From: Algoriphagus sp. NG3 | GTDB taxonomy: Bacteria; Bacteroidota; Bacteroidia; Cytophagales; Cyclobacteriaceae | DNA: 64,000 bases | Reading direction: 5' to 3' | NCBI RefSeq assembly: GCF_034119865.1 | Contig: NZ_CP139421.1 | Location: 4,380,501 to 4,444,500 of the forward strand | Shown: positions 48,537 through 57,492 of the stretch, piece after piece | Position numbering within the stretch: position 1 is the first letter of the stretch | How the letters are laid out: every line of letters begins with the position of its first letter | Position numbers and translations under genes: made by a program | The notes under the pieces: model-generated | What the model saw: the letters and a program-made list of their open reading frames with translations, nothing else | What the model was told of the DNA's origin: nothing | Database searches by the model: none

Positions 48537-49346
48537 TTACAACTCACCTTTCTGCATCAACCCCAACTTCCGATTAATCTCCGAGATCTCAATTCCGACC
48601 TGCTGAAGTGTCAATGGCTCCTGCGGAAACTCGTCACTCATATAATATTCAAATTTCCAGATCTCCCGAACCTCTTCCGCAGGAACGGTGTAAGGTGTGT
48701 AAACGGGATTTAGCGAGCGTAACAAAAAGTTTCTCTCCTCAGCCTGAAAACTCAGCATCTTAAAACTGACCCCCTCACTTGCCGTCACCACCACACAGGG
48801 AGTCTCTTTGGCAAGCCTCCACTCGGACAAATACGAGCCGATCACATAAGCCCCATCCGCAATGGGCAGCATGCTGTCTCCTTCGGTTTGGAACATGCGA
48901 TATTTTTTGTCTTTGGGCAGATTTGGTAGATTGAAAACAGGAAGCGTACTCAAATACTCCGGATCCCCAAAGCCCCCCAGGTAACCCGCTTTCGCCTTGA
49001 TCGGGACAAGCTCGATATTATCCTCATTACTTGAACTCACGGTGGTGGCCAGAATTCTGACTTTCGAGCCACTCAGAAAAACATCATTCCCAGCTTCCAG
49101 ATCACGGATTTTCAACTCACTCAGTTTGGACAAATCCACCCGCAGCAGCGTATCCACACTCATCCTGAAATAATCAGCACACAGCAACAAATCCTCAATC
49201 GCCGGCGACTTGCTATGCCCATTTTCATGCGAATTCAGCTTGGCCCGGCTCATGCCAAGATTTTCGGCCAACATGTCCTGACTCAATTTACGTCGCTTTC
49301 TGAGAAATTTCAGATTGGCCGCCCAGAAAAAGCTTTGACTTCTCAT
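48537..49346 (-). CDS. LexA-like self-cleaving repressor (XRE HTH + S24 peptidase)
   Basis: A 269-aa DNA-binding regulator. An XRE helix-turn-helix is at about 12-66 (LSQDMLAENLGMSRAKLNSH). The S24/LexA domain carries a scissile Ala120-Gly121 in KAKAGYL, nucleophile S158 in EGDSM and general base K196 in GVSFK. Spacings of 37-38 residues match those of LexA (A84-G85, S119, K156), so RecA-stimulated self-cleavage is plausible. It diverges from dinB-dnaE across 69 bases that contain a dyad over its own promoter, implying autoregulation and SOS-type induction of the polymerases. HTH type differs from true LexA (winged helix). No recA is in the window. Confidence 0.9.
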   Translation of the reverse strand: MRSQSFFWAANLKFLRKRRKLSQDMLAENLGMSRAKLNSHENGHSKSPAIEDLLLCADYFRMSVDTLLRVDLSKLSELKIRDLEAGNDVFLSGSKVRILATTVSSSNEDNIELVPIKAKAGYLGGFGDPEYLSTLPVFNLPNLPKDKKYRMFQTEGDSMLPIADGAYVIGSYLSEWRLAKETPCVVVTASEGVSFKMLSFQAEERNFLLRSLNPVYTPYTVPAEEVREIWKFEYYMSDEFPQEPLTLQQVGIEISEINRKLGLMQKGEL

Positions 49347-49354
49347 TTTTATTC

Positions 49355-49392
49355 GATAGAATTAATGACAACAAAATGATATTAATACTATC
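49355..49392. promoter_or_regulatory. Probable operator of the S24 repressor
   Basis: GATAGAATTAAT (49355-49366) and ATTAATACTATC (49381-49392) are inverted with 11 of 12 bases matching and 14 bases between. The dyad covers roughly +1 to +32 of the repressor transcript and lies 24 bases upstream of the dinB start. Confidence 0.72.
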
Positions 49393-49399
49393 AAATATA
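49392..49399 (-). promoter_or_regulatory. -7 element of the S24 repressor gene
   Basis: TATATTTG on the minus strand (exact TAnnTTTG). It touches the right arm of the dyad at 49392. Confidence 0.65.
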
Positions 49400-49415
49400 G
49401 GAAATAATCTGAGAA

Positions 49416-50564
49416 ATGGAAAGGCATATCGTGCATTTGGATCTGGACACATTCTTTGTGTCTGTGGAGCGGTTGAAAAACAGTGCCCTCAAAGACAAAC
49501 CTGTCATCATCGGCGGCAGTTCCGACCGGGGGGTGGTGGCTTCGTGCAGTTATGAAGCCAGGACATTCGGTGTGCATTCGGCCATGCCCATGAAGTTGGC
49601 ACGAAGGCTCTGCCCTTCGGCATTTTACATCAAAGGAGATCATGATAGCTATAGTCAGCAGTCACGTCTGGTGACCGAAGTAATCCAGGAGCAGGTACCG
49701 GTAATGGAGAAAGCATCCATTGATGAGTTTTACATCGATATGACAGGGATGGATCGGTTTTTTGGTTGTGAAAAATTCACCAAAGAATTACGAAAAAAAA
49801 TCGTCCAAGAGTCCGGACTGCCCATTTCCTGCGCTTTGGCAGTGAACAAACTCGTATCCAAAGTCGCCACGCATGATGCCAAACCCAACGGACAAACCAC
49901 CATCCCTTTTGGTAAAGAGAAACCTTATCTCGCACCACTTCCCATCCGGAGAATGCCGGGAATAGGTGAAAAGACCTCCACATTATTAGAGCGGATGGGT
50001 GTGGAAAACATCCGCTTGCTCAGTGAAATCCCACCCCGAATGATGCAAAACCTCTTGGGAAAATGGGGAATCGACCTTTCCCGAAAAGCCAACGGAATCG
50101 ACGAGTCGCCCGTCATCCCTTACACGGAGCAGAAAAGTATCGGCACCGAAAACACCTTTGAATCGGACACCATCGACATGGCTTTTCTGAACAGTCAATT
50201 GGTACGGATGACAGAGAAAGTCGGTTTTGAACTGCGCCAAAAGCAGAAGCTCTGCGGCTGCATCACGGTGAAGCTTCGCTATGCCAATTTCGACACGGTC
50301 AGCCGTCAGTGCATTATCTCCTACACCAGCTCGGACGAGGTCTTGCTCCAGCGGGCCAAGGAACTCTTTGCCAAACTCTATGAAAAGAGAATGCTCGTGC
50401 GCCTGATCGGTGTGAAAGTCAGTCATCTCGTTCAGGGACATCAACAGATCGATCTTTTCCAAGATACTGAAGAGGGAGTGAGTCTATACCAAGCCATCGA
50501 CTGGATCAAAAACCGCTACGGCGAAAAAAGCCTGACCCGAGCCATCACCCTAACCCGCACCTAA
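49416..50564 (+). CDS. dinB: Y-family DNA polymerase IV
   Basis: A 382-aa translesion polymerase. Catalytic carboxylates: D9 in HLDLDTFF and D103/E104 in KASIDEFYID; steric-gate aromatic F13. Thumb HhH motif MPGIGEKTS near 175. Little-finger domain about 240-345. The clamp-binding peptide QIDLF is at 344-348. All catalytic residues are kept, so this is an active Pol IV and not an ImuB-type inactive relative. It is directly followed (1 base) by dnaE, and faces the S24 repressor, making a polymerase cassette. Expression is probably released when the repressor is cleaved. Confidence 0.93.
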   Translation: MERHIVHLDLDTFFVSVERLKNSALKDKPVIIGGSSDRGVVASCSYEARTFGVHSAMPMKLARRLCPSAFYIKGDHDSYSQQSRLVTEVIQEQVPVMEKASIDEFYIDMTGMDRFFGCEKFTKELRKKIVQESGLPISCALAVNKLVSKVATHDAKPNGQTTIPFGKEKPYLAPLPIRRMPGIGEKTSTLLERMGVENIRLLSEIPPRMMQNLLGKWGIDLSRKANGIDESPVIPYTEQKSIGTENTFESDTIDMAFLNSQLVRMTEKVGFELRQKQKLCGCITVKLRYANFDTVSRQCIISYTSSDEVLLQRAKELFAKLYEKRMLVRLIGVKVSHLVQGHQQIDLFQDTEEGVSLYQAIDWIKNRYGEKSLTRAITLTRT

Positions 50565-50565
50565 G

Positions 50566-53532
50566 ATGTTTATCAATTGTAAAACCTGGTTTAGCTACCG
50601 CTACGGCACCTTCAGCACCGAAAAACTCGTGGATGCCGCAGCCGAGCGCGGACTATCGTCCCTTGGTCTCACCAATATCAACAGCACGGCGGATATGTGG
50701 GATTTCGTGGACTTCTGTAGGACAAAAAAAATCAAGCCCATCGTCGGATCGGAAATCCGAAATGAGGATAAGTTTAGCTATTTGCTTTTGGCAAAAAACG
50801 ATACTGGCCTACTCCAAATCAATCGATTTTTATCTCAGCATTTACAAGCAGAAATGGCTTTCCCAGAGCGTCCTGACTGTTTATCGGAGGTATTGATTAT
50901 TTATTCTTTTGGGAGTTTTGCTGCGCAAAGTCTAAAAGAAAATGAATTCATAGGAGTATTGGCAAGCGAACTGAATCGTATCAAAAAGCAGGACGTAGAA
51001 GCCTTTCCCAAGAAATGGATAATCCGGCATCCGGTGACTTTTCAGGACAAAACTGCTTTCAACATCCATCGCCTGCTTCGAGCCATAGGCAAGAATACCC
51101 TGATCAGTAAATTGGGGGAGAAGGACTTTGCTTCGCCAGATGAAATGTTCGTGTCAGAAGCTACGCTGATGAGTGCTTTCCGAAATTTTCCCGGCATGAT
51201 CAGCAACACGCTACAGCTTATAGACTCCTGCGAAATAAAGACCGAACTCCATACCGACAAAAATAAAAAGCACTACAGTGCCAGCGGGGAAGACGACAGG
51301 ATTTTGCTGGAAAAGCTCGCCATAGAAGGCTTCCAGTACCGCTATGGCAACAATCCCATCGCCAAAGCCCGGGTGATCAAAGAACTGAAAATCATCAATG
51401 ACCTGAATTTCAACGCCTATTTCCTGATCGTCTGGGACGTGATCCGCTACGCACAAAACCGTGGTTTTTACTACGTCGGCAGGGGAAGTGGCGCCAATTC
51501 CATTATCGCATATTGCCTGAAAATCACCGATGTGGACCCGATCAAACTCGACTTGTATTTCGAGCGATTTCTCAATCCACACCGGACTTCCCCGCCGGAT
51601 TTTGATATTGATTTCTCCTGGAAAGACCGGGATGAAGTCATCGATTACATTTTCAAACGCTACGGCAAAGACCATGTTTCACTGCTGGGAATGTACAGCA
51701 CCTTTCAGCGGAGAGCCGTGATCCGTGAGTTGGGAAAGGTTTTTGGCCTGCCAAAAGAAGAAATCGACCAACTCGTCCGAGGCAAGGATCAGCCGATGAA
51801 TGAGGATAAAATCCAACGTACCATTCTGAAATACGGTCAGCTGCTGGAGAATTTCCCGAATCACCTTTCCATCCATCCTGGCGGGATGCTGATCTCCGAG
51901 AATCCAATCTATCAATACACCGTCAATGAACTGCCTCCAAAGGGATTTTGCACGGCACAGATTGACATGTTTTTGGCAGAGAAAATCGGGCTCTTCAAGC
52001 TTGACATTCTCAGCCAGCGCGGATTAGGGCATATCAAGGAAGCTATTCGACTGGTGAAGGAAAATCGGGGAATCGACATCGATATTCATCGGGTGGAGCA
52101 GTTCATGGCTGACCCCAAAGTTGCCGCCCAGATTCGCAAAGCGGATACTATCGGCTGCTTTTACATCGAAAGTTCCGCGATGCGTCAACTCCTCACCAAA
52201 CTCAAATGTGACGATTACCTCACGCTGGTGGCGGCGAGTTCCATTATCCGTCCGGGTGTGGCACAGTCGGGTATGATGAAGCAGTACATTGAACGCTTTC
52301 ATGACCCTGAGAAGATCGTCTACCTCCACCCCAAAATGAAGGAGCTTCTGGAGGAAACCTACGGTGTGATGGTCTATCAGGAAGATGTGATCAAAGTGGC
52401 CCATCACTTTGCGGGATTGGATATGGGTGAAGCGGATATTCTACGCCGGGCCATGTCCGGCAAGTATAGATCACACAATCGCTTTAATGAAATCAGGGAA
52501 AATTACTTCAAAAACTGCAAGGAGTTAGGCCATGAAGAAACGGTCAGCGCAGAAGTATGGCGGCAGATGGAATCCTTCGGTGGTTATTCATTTTCCAAGG
52601 CACATTCGGCTTCTTTTGCGGTAGAAAGCTATCAAAGCCTTTACCTGAAGACCTATTTCCCCATGGAATTTATGGTGGCAGTGATCAATAATTTCGGGGG
52701 TTTTTATGCCACGGAATTCTATTTCCACGAACTCAAGCGCACCGGAGCGAAGGTAAATCCCCCATGTGTCAACCGCAGTGAATATCTGACCAATATCAGA
52801 GGGGAGGAGGTTTTTGTAGGCTTGATCCATGTGCAACAGCTGGAAAAGAAACTCTGTGACTTGATTCTGGAGGAAAGGAAAACCAACGGGAATTACCTGA
52901 GTTTGGAGGACTTTATTGAGCGCACCTATGCCGGGCCAGAGCAATTGAACATTTTGATTAGTGTAGGTGCTTTTGGATTTACAGGTTTGGGAAAAAAGAA
53001 ACTGCTTTGGAAAGCCAACTTTGCCCAAAAGCATCTGGCAGCCATTCCGGACTCCCCGGCGCTTTTCAAAGAACCTCCCATGGACTTTACACTACCGGAT
53101 TTCCCGGATTACCCGCTGGAAGATGCGCTGGACGAGATCAATGTGCTGGGTTTTGCCCTGACGGATATGTTTCGTCTTTGTGCCCATGACGGTAAAGGAA
53201 CGGTGCTCGCAGCCCAACTCCCTCAGTTGTTGGGAAAAAATGTGGAAATGATCGGCCAGCTTGTCACCACCAAAGACGTGCGCACGGTCAATCGGGAACA
53301 CATGGCATTTGGAACCTTTCTCGATGCCAACGGTGACTGGCTGGACACAGTCCATTTCCCCAATTCTCTGAAGCGATTCCCTTTTCAAGGCAAAGGGTTT
53401 TATAAAATCCGGGGCAAGGTCGTGGAGGATTTCGGGACGTTTGCCATCGACGCACACGGCATGTGGAAGGTCGGGTTGAAGGATAAGAAGGAGGTGGAGC
53501 CGATCTCAGTGTTTTCTACTCTATCTGTATAA
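50566..53532 (+). CDS. dnaE: Short C-family DNA polymerase III alpha-like (DnaE-type) with degenerate PHP
   Basis: A 988-aa DNA polymerase alpha relative. The palm aspartates are D347/D349 in PDFDIDF and D480 in FKLDILS. The fingers, tandem HhH (about 760-830) and an OB-like segment near the end are visible. The PHP domain (about 1-210) has lost the usual His-x-His entry: it reads NCKTWFSYRYG where FVHLHTEYS is expected, and LTNINSTADMW in place of LTDH. It should thus lack metal-dependent proofreading. Shorter than replicative DnaE (about 1160 aa). Being directly behind dinB and under the S24 control region, it is likely a damage-inducible error-prone polymerase, comparable to DnaE2 of imuA-imuB-dnaE2 cassettes, though imuA is absent. 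Confidence 0.9.
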   Translation: MFINCKTWFSYRYGTFSTEKLVDAAAERGLSSLGLTNINSTADMWDFVDFCRTKKIKPIVGSEIRNEDKFSYLLLAKNDTGLLQINRFLSQHLQAEMAFPERPDCLSEVLIIYSFGSFAAQSLKENEFIGVLASELNRIKKQDVEAFPKKWIIRHPVTFQDKTAFNIHRLLRAIGKNTLISKLGEKDFASPDEMFVSEATLMSAFRNFPGMISNTLQLIDSCEIKTELHTDKNKKHYSASGEDDRILLEKLAIEGFQYRYGNNPIAKARVIKELKIINDLNFNAYFLIVWDVIRYAQNRGFYYVGRGSGANSIIAYCLKITDVDPIKLDLYFERFLNPHRTSPPDFDIDFSWKDRDEVIDYIFKRYGKDHVSLLGMYSTFQRRAVIRELGKVFGLPKEEIDQLVRGKDQPMNEDKIQRTILKYGQLLENFPNHLSIHPGGMLISENPIYQYTVNELPPKGFCTAQIDMFLAEKIGLFKLDILSQRGLGHIKEAIRLVKENRGIDIDIHRVEQFMADPKVAAQIRKADTIGCFYIESSAMRQLLTKLKCDDYLTLVAASSIIRPGVAQSGMMKQYIERFHDPEKIVYLHPKMKELLEETYGVMVYQEDVIKVAHHFAGLDMGEADILRRAMSGKYRSHNRFNEIRENYFKNCKELGHEETVSAEVWRQMESFGGYSFSKAHSASFAVESYQSLYLKTYFPMEFMVAVINNFGGFYATEFYFHELKRTGAKVNPPCVNRSEYLTNIRGEEVFVGLIHVQQLEKKLCDLILEERKTNGNYLSLEDFIERTYAGPEQLNILISVGAFGFTGLGKKKLLWKANFAQKHLAAIPDSPALFKEPPMDFTLPDFPDYPLEDALDEINVLGFALTDMFRLCAHDGKGTVLAAQLPQLLGKNVEMIGQLVTTKDVRTVNREHMAFGTFLDANGDWLDTVHFPNSLKRFPFQGKGFYKIRGKVVEDFGTFAIDAHGMWKVGLKDKKEVEPISVFSTLSV

Positions 53533-53719: not shown

Positions 53720-54673
53720 ATGCCTCATCAAATCTCTGTCCTAATTGATTTTAATCACATCTCATCACAGCATGATTTACTTGAAGCATTTACACAACTA
53801 AACCATTTAAAGCCAGGAGATGAATTAGAATTGCAAATTGACCTCAATGGCACTGGCTTTATTTACCCCGATCTACTATTGCTTCTTGTAGCTCGGATTG
53901 AATGCCTAAAAAGAAATGATATAAAAGTAATTTGTTCTATGGTTAATTTTAATCCCAATTCGGATAGAGCTAATTATGCCAGTAGGATTAATTTTTTTGA
54001 AATTATTGGGATTGAACTTGAAGAGGATTTTACAAGACGAGATAGGCAAGGTAGATTTATCGAGATATCAAAGTTCAATGAGACAAATATCAACACCGTA
54101 TTTGCAGAAATAATGCGAATCCTGATTGTGAACGGTGTGAATGAAGATATGCTAACAGTTCTGAATTTTTGTTTATATGAAGTTCTTGACAACACGCTTA
54201 ACCACTCTAGCCCGGAATTCAGATATGGGGCTGGTACAGGATTTGTTGTTGTCCAATTCTTCCCAAGATCGCAAGAAATTAGAATTATCATTGCAGACAC
54301 AGGTCAAGGAATCCATGCTGCTTTGACTGGACATCCAAAATCAAGATTTATTGACCTTTCCGAACCAGAAGCCGTTACTAGATGTATAGAAAGAGGAGTT
54401 ACCAATAGCCTAGGATTAGGTTTTGGCCTTTGGGCTACATCAGAAATGATGAGTAAAAATAAAGGAGACTTTATAATCTATTCAGGAGGTTCATGCCTTC
54501 GTAATGGAACGTTATATGAAACACCTCACTGGAGAGGCACAATAAATTACCTGAGAATCAACACGAATATCTCCGTTAATTATAAAGAAATATTTGGAGA
54601 AGATTCTGATCAACTCGATATGTTTCAGGAGTTTAAAGAATCTCAGTTTGGCAATCTTGAGAACCTTTGGTAA
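53720..54673 (+). CDS. GHKL ATPase with STAS-like N-terminus
   Basis: A 317-aa soluble protein. Residues 1-110 have an alternating beta/alpha pattern (ELELQIDLNGTGFIYPDLLLLL, KVICSMVNFNP) like STAS/anti-sigma-antagonist folds. The C-terminal HATPase has an N box with E154/N158 (LYEVLDNTLNH), a G1 box DTGQG at 193-197 and a G2 box GLGFGL at 232-237. No HisKA or receiver is present, so it is more like an anti-sigma kinase (SpoIIAB/RsbW-like) than a sensor. It is followed after 25 bases by a DUF4325 STAS-like gene. The base composition is markedly more AT-rich than the preceding dnaE, indicating recent transfer. Confidence 0.8.
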   Translation: MPHQISVLIDFNHISSQHDLLEAFTQLNHLKPGDELELQIDLNGTGFIYPDLLLLLVARIECLKRNDIKVICSMVNFNPNSDRANYASRINFFEIIGIELEEDFTRRDRQGRFIEISKFNETNINTVFAEIMRILIVNGVNEDMLTVLNFCLYEVLDNTLNHSSPEFRYGAGTGFVVVQFFPRSQEIRIIIADTGQGIHAALTGHPKSRFIDLSEPEAVTRCIERGVTNSLGLGFGLWATSEMMSKNKGDFIIYSGGSCLRNGTLYETPHWRGTINYLRINTNISVNYKEIFGEDSDQLDMFQEFKESQFGNLENLW

Positions 54674-54698
54674 ATTTGAAAATCCTTTAGAACGGAAA

Positions 54699-54998
54699 AT
54701 GACACAGACTATCTTATTTAATAGCTTTTCTAACAGCCTTGGAACAAGAGTTCTAGGGCAAGAAATCCGTGTGCAAATAGAATCATTTCTTGAATCAAAC
54801 GATTTTGTAATTTTTGATTTTAAAGGAGTTGAGTTTATTTCCCATAGTTTTTCGGATGAATGCTTTGGTAAGTTACTTTTGAAACTCCCCTTTCCAGAAC
54901 TGAAATCTAAGTCCACATTCGTCAACGCAAGTGAGTTGGTCAAAAAGACGATTGCTTTAGCGATTAATGATCGTCTAAAAGCAAGTTTAGCTTACTGA
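54699..54998 (+). CDS. DUF4325 STAS-like protein
   Basis: A 99-aa protein started at ATG 54699. A longer frame runs back to 54594 inside the previous gene, but those residues are its +2 shadow. The signature is DFKGVEFISHSFSDECFGKL (40-59), the DUF4325 motif, in a STAS-like fold. Such proteins occur next to or fused with GHKL ATPases. By analogy to SpoIIAA/SpoIIAB the ATPase may phosphorylate or bind it, but no target sigma factor or effector is visible here. A terminator follows. Confidence 0.82.
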   Translation: MTQTILFNSFSNSLGTRVLGQEIRVQIESFLESNDFVIFDFKGVEFISHSFSDECFGKLLLKLPFPELKSKSTFVNASELVKKTIALAINDRLKASLAY

Positions 54999-56655: not shown

Positions 56656-57492
56656 TCATTCATCGCCTAGTTTTCTTAGCGTTTCATTAGCCAAAAGTGA
56701 CTTCATCTGCATTATAGCTACTTTATTCAATTGTACTAATCTGTCTTTTTGTGATAGACCCTGTTCTATCAATAAAGCATTTATACTCTCCATGTTACTC
56801 AATACCACCAATTGCTCAATCGAAGCTTCATCGCGCATGTTTCCCTTCTTTTCTCCTTCCGAACCAACAGAAGAATCCTCTTTCCACTGCTTTGCAGTTT
56901 TTCCAAAAAGTGCCACATTCAACAAATCCGCCTCATTTGCATAAATGAAATTGATTTGAGATTTAGAAATGAGTTTCGGCACAATGTTCTCTTTGATTGC
57001 GTCTGTATGGATCTTATAATTAATCTTGGAAAGGGTTCTTTGAATATCCCATTCAAGATTTAAACGATTACTCTCTTCTTCTTTAAGCCTTTTGAACTCT
57101 TTGATCAAATAGATTTTAAACTCGGCACTAATCCACATACCAAATTCAAAAGCGATATCCGAATGCGCATAAGTGCCTCCATATCGTCCAGCTTTTGCTT
57201 TTAATCCAATGGCATTTGTTTTTAAAACCCAATCTTTCACGCTTAGCTTATAACTATTTAACCCAGCTTGACTTTTAATTATGGCGAATTCGCCATAATT
57301 AAAATCTGGATTGTAAACGGACTCCCAAATCCCTAAAAACTCAACTGTATTCCTATTTCTTAGCCAATCTGAAATAAAGAAATCCCCTTCCTTCGATTTA
57401 AGCATATCCGTTAGAGAAATGTAATCTAACCCTACCTCATTTAGTATGGTTATGACATTCCCTTTTACTTCTATTGTTTTCTTTTTTGACAT
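56656..57492 (-). CDS. KilA-N domain protein
   Basis: A 278-aa protein with a KilA-N DNA-binding domain in the first 140 residues (YISLTDMLKSKEGDFFISDWLRNRNTVEFLGIWES and GRYGGTYAHSDIAFEFGMWIS). The C-terminal part is a helical, charged region with a small GSEGEKKG linker. KilA-N proteins are common in phages and large DNA viruses, but solo copies of this length (about 270-280 aa) occur on Bacteroidota chromosomes. There are no neighbouring phage genes. The gene is AT-rich relative to the hydrolase next to it. The role is unknown, perhaps as a repressor or antirepressor. Confidence 0.85.
   Translation of the reverse strand: MSKKKTIEVKGNVITILNEVGLDYISLTDMLKSKEGDFFISDWLRNRNTVEFLGIWESVYNPDFNYGEFAIIKSQAGLNSYKLSVKDWVLKTNAIGLKAKAGRYGGTYAHSDIAFEFGMWISAEFKIYLIKEFKRLKEEESNRLNLEWDIQRTLSKINYKIHTDAIKENIVPKLISKSQINFIYANEADLLNVALFGKTAKQWKEDSSVGSEGEKKGNMRDEASIEQLVVLSNMESINALLIEQGLSQKDRLVQLNKVAIMQMKSLLANETLRKLGDE

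Follow-up and report, generated by a model that had tools for sequence, protein, structure and literature searches.

Architecture of the cassette

The window analysed here is a stretch of 64,000 nucleotides from Algoriphagus sp. NG3 (Bacteroidota, Cyclobacteriaceae; NZ_CP139421.1, positions 4,380,501 to 4,444,500), held by a single contig of 5.89 Mb, and our subject is a cassette of three genes within it (48537 to 53532). A gene for an XRE-type helix-turn-helix (HTH) repressor with an S24 peptidase domain (48537..49346, reverse strand) is divergent from dinB, which encodes an intact-looking Y-family polymerase (49416..50564, forward strand), and 1 base further follows a dnaE-type gene (50566..53532, forward strand), recognised from its open reading frame and profile matches, for a C-family polymerase of 988 residues. 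A preliminary description had noted this arrangement and seen in it a self-contained damage-inducible mutator unit; the arrangement itself was confirmed.

The repressor belongs to the XRE-S24 family described as the non-canonical LexA of Bacteroidetes on the basis of electrophoretic mobility shift assays and mitomycin C induction (Sanchez-Osuna et al., 2021; PMC8565304, here and below for the accessible parts of that report). Its N-terminus matches the phage-type HTH model HTH_3 (PF01381; 35.2 bits, cut-off 23) and resembles the HTH of P22 c2 and SinR in fold, in agreement with the earlier proposal that the controller is an XRE-HTH protein and not the winged helix of PF01726. The self-cleavage residues reported from its translation are indeed there: the S24 domain has both an Ala-Gly bond, A120-G121, presumed to be scissile, and the Ser-Lys dyad S158/K196, and A120, S158 and K196 are kept throughout the family alignment. 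A profile search against PDB sequences returned HTH domains only. Predicted viral CI repressors resemble the protein in fold, and only 2 of 50,697 phage records match it at 1e-5, over about half of its length; its phage kinship therefore rests on fold and not on a near relative.

The catalytic residues of DinB are intact, so that, as had been suggested, the place of ImuB is taken by a polymerase that looks active. Residues 344-348 (50445..50459, forward strand) read QIDLF in the translation, which we take to be a motif of the β-clamp-binding type. Further into the C-terminal tail, residues 356-375 (50481..50540, forward strand) resemble the N-terminus of the genome's own RecA in an ungapped comparison. 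The best such match of the whole DinB falls in this tail, a score equalled by 41 of 2000 shuffled tails, and it recurs in the same register in 8/8 DinB relatives compared. By itself, the tail is modest evidence for a contact with RecA. Previously called a short DnaE, the downstream polymerase is consistent with the DnaE found together with PolY2 in Bacteroidetes (Timinskas and Venclovas, 2019; PMC6511836, likewise for its accessible parts). It scores 499.2 bits on the NCBIfam model for error-prone DnaE2 (NF004225), below the cut-off of 939, and the DnaE2 of a relative's imu cassette reaches 1368.5.

Damage-response genes elsewhere in the genome

Three repressors of this family are present in the genome: that of the window, one 77-78% identical to it, which heads a second cassette (cassette B), and one about 36% identical. 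A Peptidase_S24 profile search of the genome matches these three XRE-type proteins only. The sole LexA_DNA_bind match is a 358-residue frame with no S24 match, and this model is unspecific, matching in 14/14 control genomes, archaea included. Control by a canonical LexA, on which the preliminary description might have failed, was thus rejected for this genome. There is a single recA gene. ImuA, earlier said to be missing, was likewise rejected: NF033429 matches the recA locus only, and the ImuA protein of the imu locus L133 as query matches nothing, in a search run without a positive control genome. The three Y-family (PF00817) genes are the two cassette dinB genes and one ordinary dinB, whose product is 31% identical; the cassette DinB residues are intact and the remaining PF00817 matches are DinBs, so no catalytically dead ImuB was found. 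Two of the three DnaE genes lie in the cassettes. The third repressor (L003; L005:8961-10807) stands alone, its neighbour being a gene with a TIR-like beginning, as judged by eye, and neither a clear tandem operator nor a CTAA-N5-TTAG site was seen in the 270 bp of its promoter inspected.

Putative paired operators in the divergent promoter

The repressor and dinB genes are separated by 69 bp, in which we recognise two putative operators, O1 (GATAGAATTAATGAC, 49355..49369) and, 23 bp from it, O2 (GATATTAATACTATC, 49378..49392). Sharing its last base with O2 is CAAATATA (49392..49399, reverse strand), the reverse of TATATTTG and a putative TAnnTTTG −7 box of the repressor promoter. The element CAAANNTA is conserved after O2 in 25/43 intergenics and in 6/6 further loci; reversed, it reads TAnnTTTG, which we take to be the Bacteroidota −7 consensus, and transcription of the repressor gene would therefore start at a site covered by O2. 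The OR sites of lambda are likewise 23-24 bp apart.

For comparison we used 43 divergent repressor-dinB intergenics. Under a strict definition (two 15-bp sites, each a 5-N5-5 dyad, of which one must be perfect and the other may have at most 1 mismatch), a spacing of 23 bp occurs in 18/43; 100 dinucleotide shuffles gave a mean of 0.85, and not one spacing was reached more than six times in them. A looser pattern, G-N13-C, 7-9 bp, G-N13-C and AAANNTA, is present in 25/43 (19 if near-copies of the window are set aside; a few have 24 bp); in 200 shuffles the full pattern of operators and −7 box has a mean of 0.095 and a maximum of 1. This pattern was derived from the same 43 intergenics, and the fair check is with loci that did not serve to find it: it is present in 6/6 loci in which the repressor faces other genes. 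Furthermore, in the carotenoid-type loci described below, the best pair lies at 23 bp in 11/13, with 18-19 of 20 half-site letters shared.

The letters of the dyads vary by group (GATTA-N5-TAATC, GTTTA-N5-TAAAC, GCTAA-N5-TTAGC and GCTAC-N5-GTAGC), and repressors with GCTAA-N5-TTAGC-type sites (L058-L060) lie outside the clade of the window's repressor. O1 and O2 are tied to the family pattern because they share its position and spacing, are followed by CAAANNTA and have counterparts in cassette B (GATACAATTAATGGC for O1, and GTTATTAATTGTATC) and in Lunatibacter salilacus (GATACAATTAGAGTC and GACACTAATTGTATC). The sites of these two loci suggest a putative GATAC-N5-GTATC dyad for the window's group. 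The exact published dyads (GGA-N5-TCC, CTAA-N5-TTAG and TTAC-N5-GTAA) are not present; the dyad-N5-dyad layout in the repressor's own promoter is. A wider regulon under the cassette operator was considered and rejected: the operator has 27 matches in the genome against 19 in the control, the sole close pairs being the two cassettes, and a longer operator pattern has 288 against 294.

A second cassette and the distribution of the unit

Cassette B (L004) is complete, repeats the gene order and the 1-base gap between dinB and dnaE, and aligns with the window from 48563 to 53491 (4946 columns, 75.1% identity). Beyond these borders, nothing else of the window aligns in 19.9 kb. Its neighbours are SRAP, ArdC, RadC and TraG genes, as well as TraJ, TraM and DUF4138 genes of the Bacteroides conjugative transposon type. 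The recognition helices of the two repressors differ at two positions (SRAKLNSHE in the window, TRAKLNAHE in cassette B), and to judge from the sequences, the two cassettes are likely to cross-regulate each other. By eye, apparent CRISPR-Cas genes and an array were noticed some 15 kb leftward of cassette B (L126:265-5810).

Among named organisms, Algoriphagus yeomjeoni has the cassette closest to the window's (DinB 94% identical). The cassette occupies the window's site in two relatives (G265 and G247), and in a third (G232) neither flank matches the window. A repressor at least 77% identical is found in 4 of the 291 genomes of the order examined, all within the genus, from which 12 genomes were examined, and some member of the family occurs in 223 of the 291 at 1e-10. 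The preliminary description had proposed looking for the same gene order in other genomes; among the 71 nearest DinB loci with flanking sequence, the order repressor-dinB-dnaE is kept in 26, and no dnaE lies downstream in 21. DinB matches six plasmid records (one a remote actinobacterial replicon) and DnaE seven. Repressor, dinB and dnaE are found together on a mobilizable Chryseobacterium plasmid and on the conjugative Emticicia plasmid pEMTOL01, on the latter adjacent to SRAP and ArdA; Adhaeribacter and Persicobacter plasmids carry dinB-dnaE, with no repressor detectable in the stretch inspected. The plasmid repressors are 30-35% identical to that of the window and belong to a different clade. 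TraG, ArdC and RadC were found at cassette B and at none of the other cassettes, and weak SRAP matches in five other loci.

Three observations on related loci are added here. In Lunatibacter salilacus (L047:4900-9083), operators and dinB are kept, only the first codons of the repressor gene are left, and dnaE has an interrupted frame, which could be decay, an unregulated cassette or an assembly error. In other Algoriphagus-type genomes (L038-L045, L068, L078, L087, L103 and kin), dinB is faced by a repressor of a different clade, and dnaE is mostly absent; this clade has GTTTA-N5-TAAAC-type sites, and Ala-Ser replaces Ala-Gly at the presumed cleavage bond. In a metagenome-assembled genome titled Rickettsiales (L105), a dinB of Bacteroidota type and a DnaE gene not far from it probably sit on a misplaced contig.

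Related repressors before other genes

In a tree of 69 repressors, made by a quick method with eleven near-duplicates omitted and showing some long branches, the window's repressor falls in a branch of 19 (SH-aLRT 97), of which 8 face merR and carotenoid genes, 5 imuAB-dnaE2, 5 dinB and 1 dnaE. Many bacteria carry imuA-imuB-dnaE2 mutasome cassettes under LexA. In six such loci (L133/L020, L134, L136, L137, L138 and L140/L025), a close relative of the window's repressor is divergent from imuA-imuB, with 71-73 bp between match starts; ImuA reaches an E value of 3e-21 yet stays under its NCBIfam cut-off, ImuB has a weak IMS match and DnaE2 lies far over its cut-off. One of them, L136, is assigned to a Dyadobacter chenhuakuii plasmid. 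In 14 loci (13 among L021-L024, L026-L033 and L036, plus L135), the repressor faces a MerR gene, behind which lies a gene for phytoene desaturase. Where this arrangement was inspected in full (L135:2543-8573), a B12-binding domain was found in the MerR protein, whose CarH match is below the cut-off, and CrtI scores above its cut-off. These loci share the tandem operator layout of the window's family, and a link between DNA damage and carotenoid protection is possible on these gene neighbourhoods. At L139, the repressor faces dnaE alone.

Tentatively, since we hold it to be somewhat less than an even chance, these loci may reflect a portable, phage-derived repressor that moves with its tandem operators among Bacteroidota, coming to stand before alternative damage sets (dinB-dnaE, imuA-imuB-dnaE2, dnaE alone, or CarH-like and carotenoid genes), as a 5-kb unit with its polymerases on conjugative elements, and with copies that cross-regulate each other. 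How a phage-type repressor captures new targets could be tested directly in such a clade, whose members stand before dinB-dnaE, imuAB-dnaE2 or carotenoid genes. With cassettes beside conjugation genes or on plasmids, inducible mutagenesis itself would be transferable.

Proposed mechanism and alternatives

We consider it highly likely that the cassette is a self-regulated, damage-inducible translesion unit of a kind already described in Bacteroidetes. In the undamaged cell, repressor dimers would occupy O1 and O2 and in this way cover the promoter of their own gene, where O2 abuts the −7 box, and presumably that of dinB-dnaE. RecA-ssDNA filaments would stimulate self-cleavage at A120-G121 through S158/K196, the operators would be vacated, and with both promoters free, DinB and the DnaE-type polymerase would be co-produced. 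We propose paired-dimer repression, RecA-stimulated cleavage and co-production because of the properties of the family, whose members bind dyad-N5-dyad sites and are induced by mitomycin C together with dinB-type targets (Sanchez-Osuna et al., 2021), and because of the anatomy described above. DinB would be tethered to the clamp through QIDLF and probably to RecA through its tail, and would pass lesions to DnaE, or share them with it, as ImuB does for DnaE2, in a translesion mutasome. We propose DinB as the organiser because it has a clamp motif and a RecA-like C-tail, a motif reported for this type of polymerase (Timinskas and Venclovas, 2019). Two back-up polymerases would thus probably copy damaged DNA at the cost of mutations.

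Several observations weigh against this interpretation. The Peptidase_S24 score of the window's repressor is under the Pfam cut-off. The window's own operators are degenerate, with 2/5 (O1) and 4/5 (O2) dyad positions paired, and fail the strict dyad test while fitting the looser pattern. The 43 intergenics include near-copies, and spacings of 10 and 17 bp also exceed the shuffles (10/43 and 9/43), far less specifically than 23 bp; many of the loci with these spacings carry overlapping AT-rich palindromes. Furthermore, a conserved rightward −7 box for dinB was not found (best offset 9/28, one mismatch allowed).

The alternatives concern the signal, the host benefit and the partnership of the polymerases. 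It is rather unlikely, in our view, that DinB and DnaE are independent polymerases that share a promoter and form no mutasome. Both look active, and dnaE is missing downstream in the 21 of 71 loci mentioned, but the 1-base gap is found in both copies of the genome, and the RecA-like tail of DinB is as in reported mutasomes (Timinskas and Venclovas, 2019). That the two copies are selfish or decaying passengers, with polymerases of little use to the host, is improbable. The conjugation genes beside cassette B, homology that stops at the cassette borders, the patchy occurrence in the genus (4/12 genomes at the identity level used above) and the lost repressor and interrupted dnaE of Lunatibacter salilacus would fit such a passenger; in this genome, however, the frames of both copies are open over their full length, the invariant catalytic residues are in place, and the operator layout is retained in either promoter. 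More improbable still is a repressor that answers to another signal or to an antirepressor in place of RecA-dependent self-cleavage, which would put the cassette outside the DNA-damage response. At the 14 close-relative loci with CarH-like and carotenoid genes, light or oxidative stress would readily suggest itself as a signal, and Ala-Ser stands at the presumed scissile bond in one of the clades aligned; against this, S158, K196 and A120 are conserved across the family, whose characterised members respond to mitomycin C (Sanchez-Osuna et al., 2021).

Relation to known systems

To our knowledge, Bacteroidota were long believed to have no SOS response. The damage-inducible translesion unit proposed here is itself already known from two reports, so that the preliminary description was borne out in its anatomy and not in the novelty that it implied: XRE-S24 control of dinB-dnaE in Bacteroidetes was shown in 2021, including an Elizabethkingia anophelis repressor with an error-prone polymerase gene opposite (PMC8565304), and an active PolY2 with DnaE2 was described in 2019 as a putative mutasome without ImuA, with a RecA-like motif in the Y-family polymerases and with Cellulophaga algicola and Beliella baltica as representatives (PMC6511836). 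With the first, the window's unit has in common the XRE-type HTH with S24, the Ala/Ser/Lys set, dyad-N5-dyad sites in its own promoter and a dinB-dnaE operon as target; unlike the units in the accessible parts of that report, it has other dyad letters, a pair at fixed 23 bp and no wider regulon seen. The main text of PMC8565304, without supplements, does not contain the words Algoriphagus, Cyclobacteriaceae, plasmid, conjugative or carotenoid. With the second it shares an active Y-family polymerase with a RecA-like tail, dnaE directly after it, and the lack of ImuA and ImuB-C; the XRE-S24 repressor and mobility are topics untreated in the accessible parts of PMC6511836.

The imuA-imuB-dnaE2 cassettes are inducible units of a Y-family protein and a second DnaE, as the window's would be; in contrast to them, the window's has no ImuA, an intact Y-polymerase and a DnaE under the error-prone DnaE2 cut-off. 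The minimal circuits of HdiR, UmuDAb and FddR are similar in having an S24 repressor and a small damage regulon of error-prone polymerases or divergent genes, and differ in lineage and operator (GTG-N11-CAC for FddR) (PMC8565304; PMC13148647, in its accessible parts); for another genus, a captured phage repressor that gained modules has been argued for (PMC13148647).

Our additions are the fixed 23-bp operator pair, the GATAC-type dyad, a copy with conjugation genes as neighbours and the exchange of targets within one repressor clade, which we did not find in the open-licence literature without supplements. There, searches for integrative and conjugative elements with dinB and dnaE in Bacteroidetes gave only one review; those for SOS with dinB and a LexA-like protein in Bacteroidota, and for carotenoid genes with LexA and CarH in Bacteroidetes, gave none; and those for Dyadobacter LexA and a fixed LexA spacing gave nothing relevant or fitting. 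A fixed layout that survives the drift of its letters would be a simple means of finding such switches in any genome and of following how LexA-type sites change.

Neighbouring genes

Downstream of the cassette, at 53720-54998 of the window, lie two overlapping genes, one for an ATPase-like protein (HATPase_c, below the cut-off) and the other for a STAS-like protein with DUF4325. A KilA-N domain protein, of a kind frequent in phages, is encoded at 56656-57492, 3 kb beyond the cassette.

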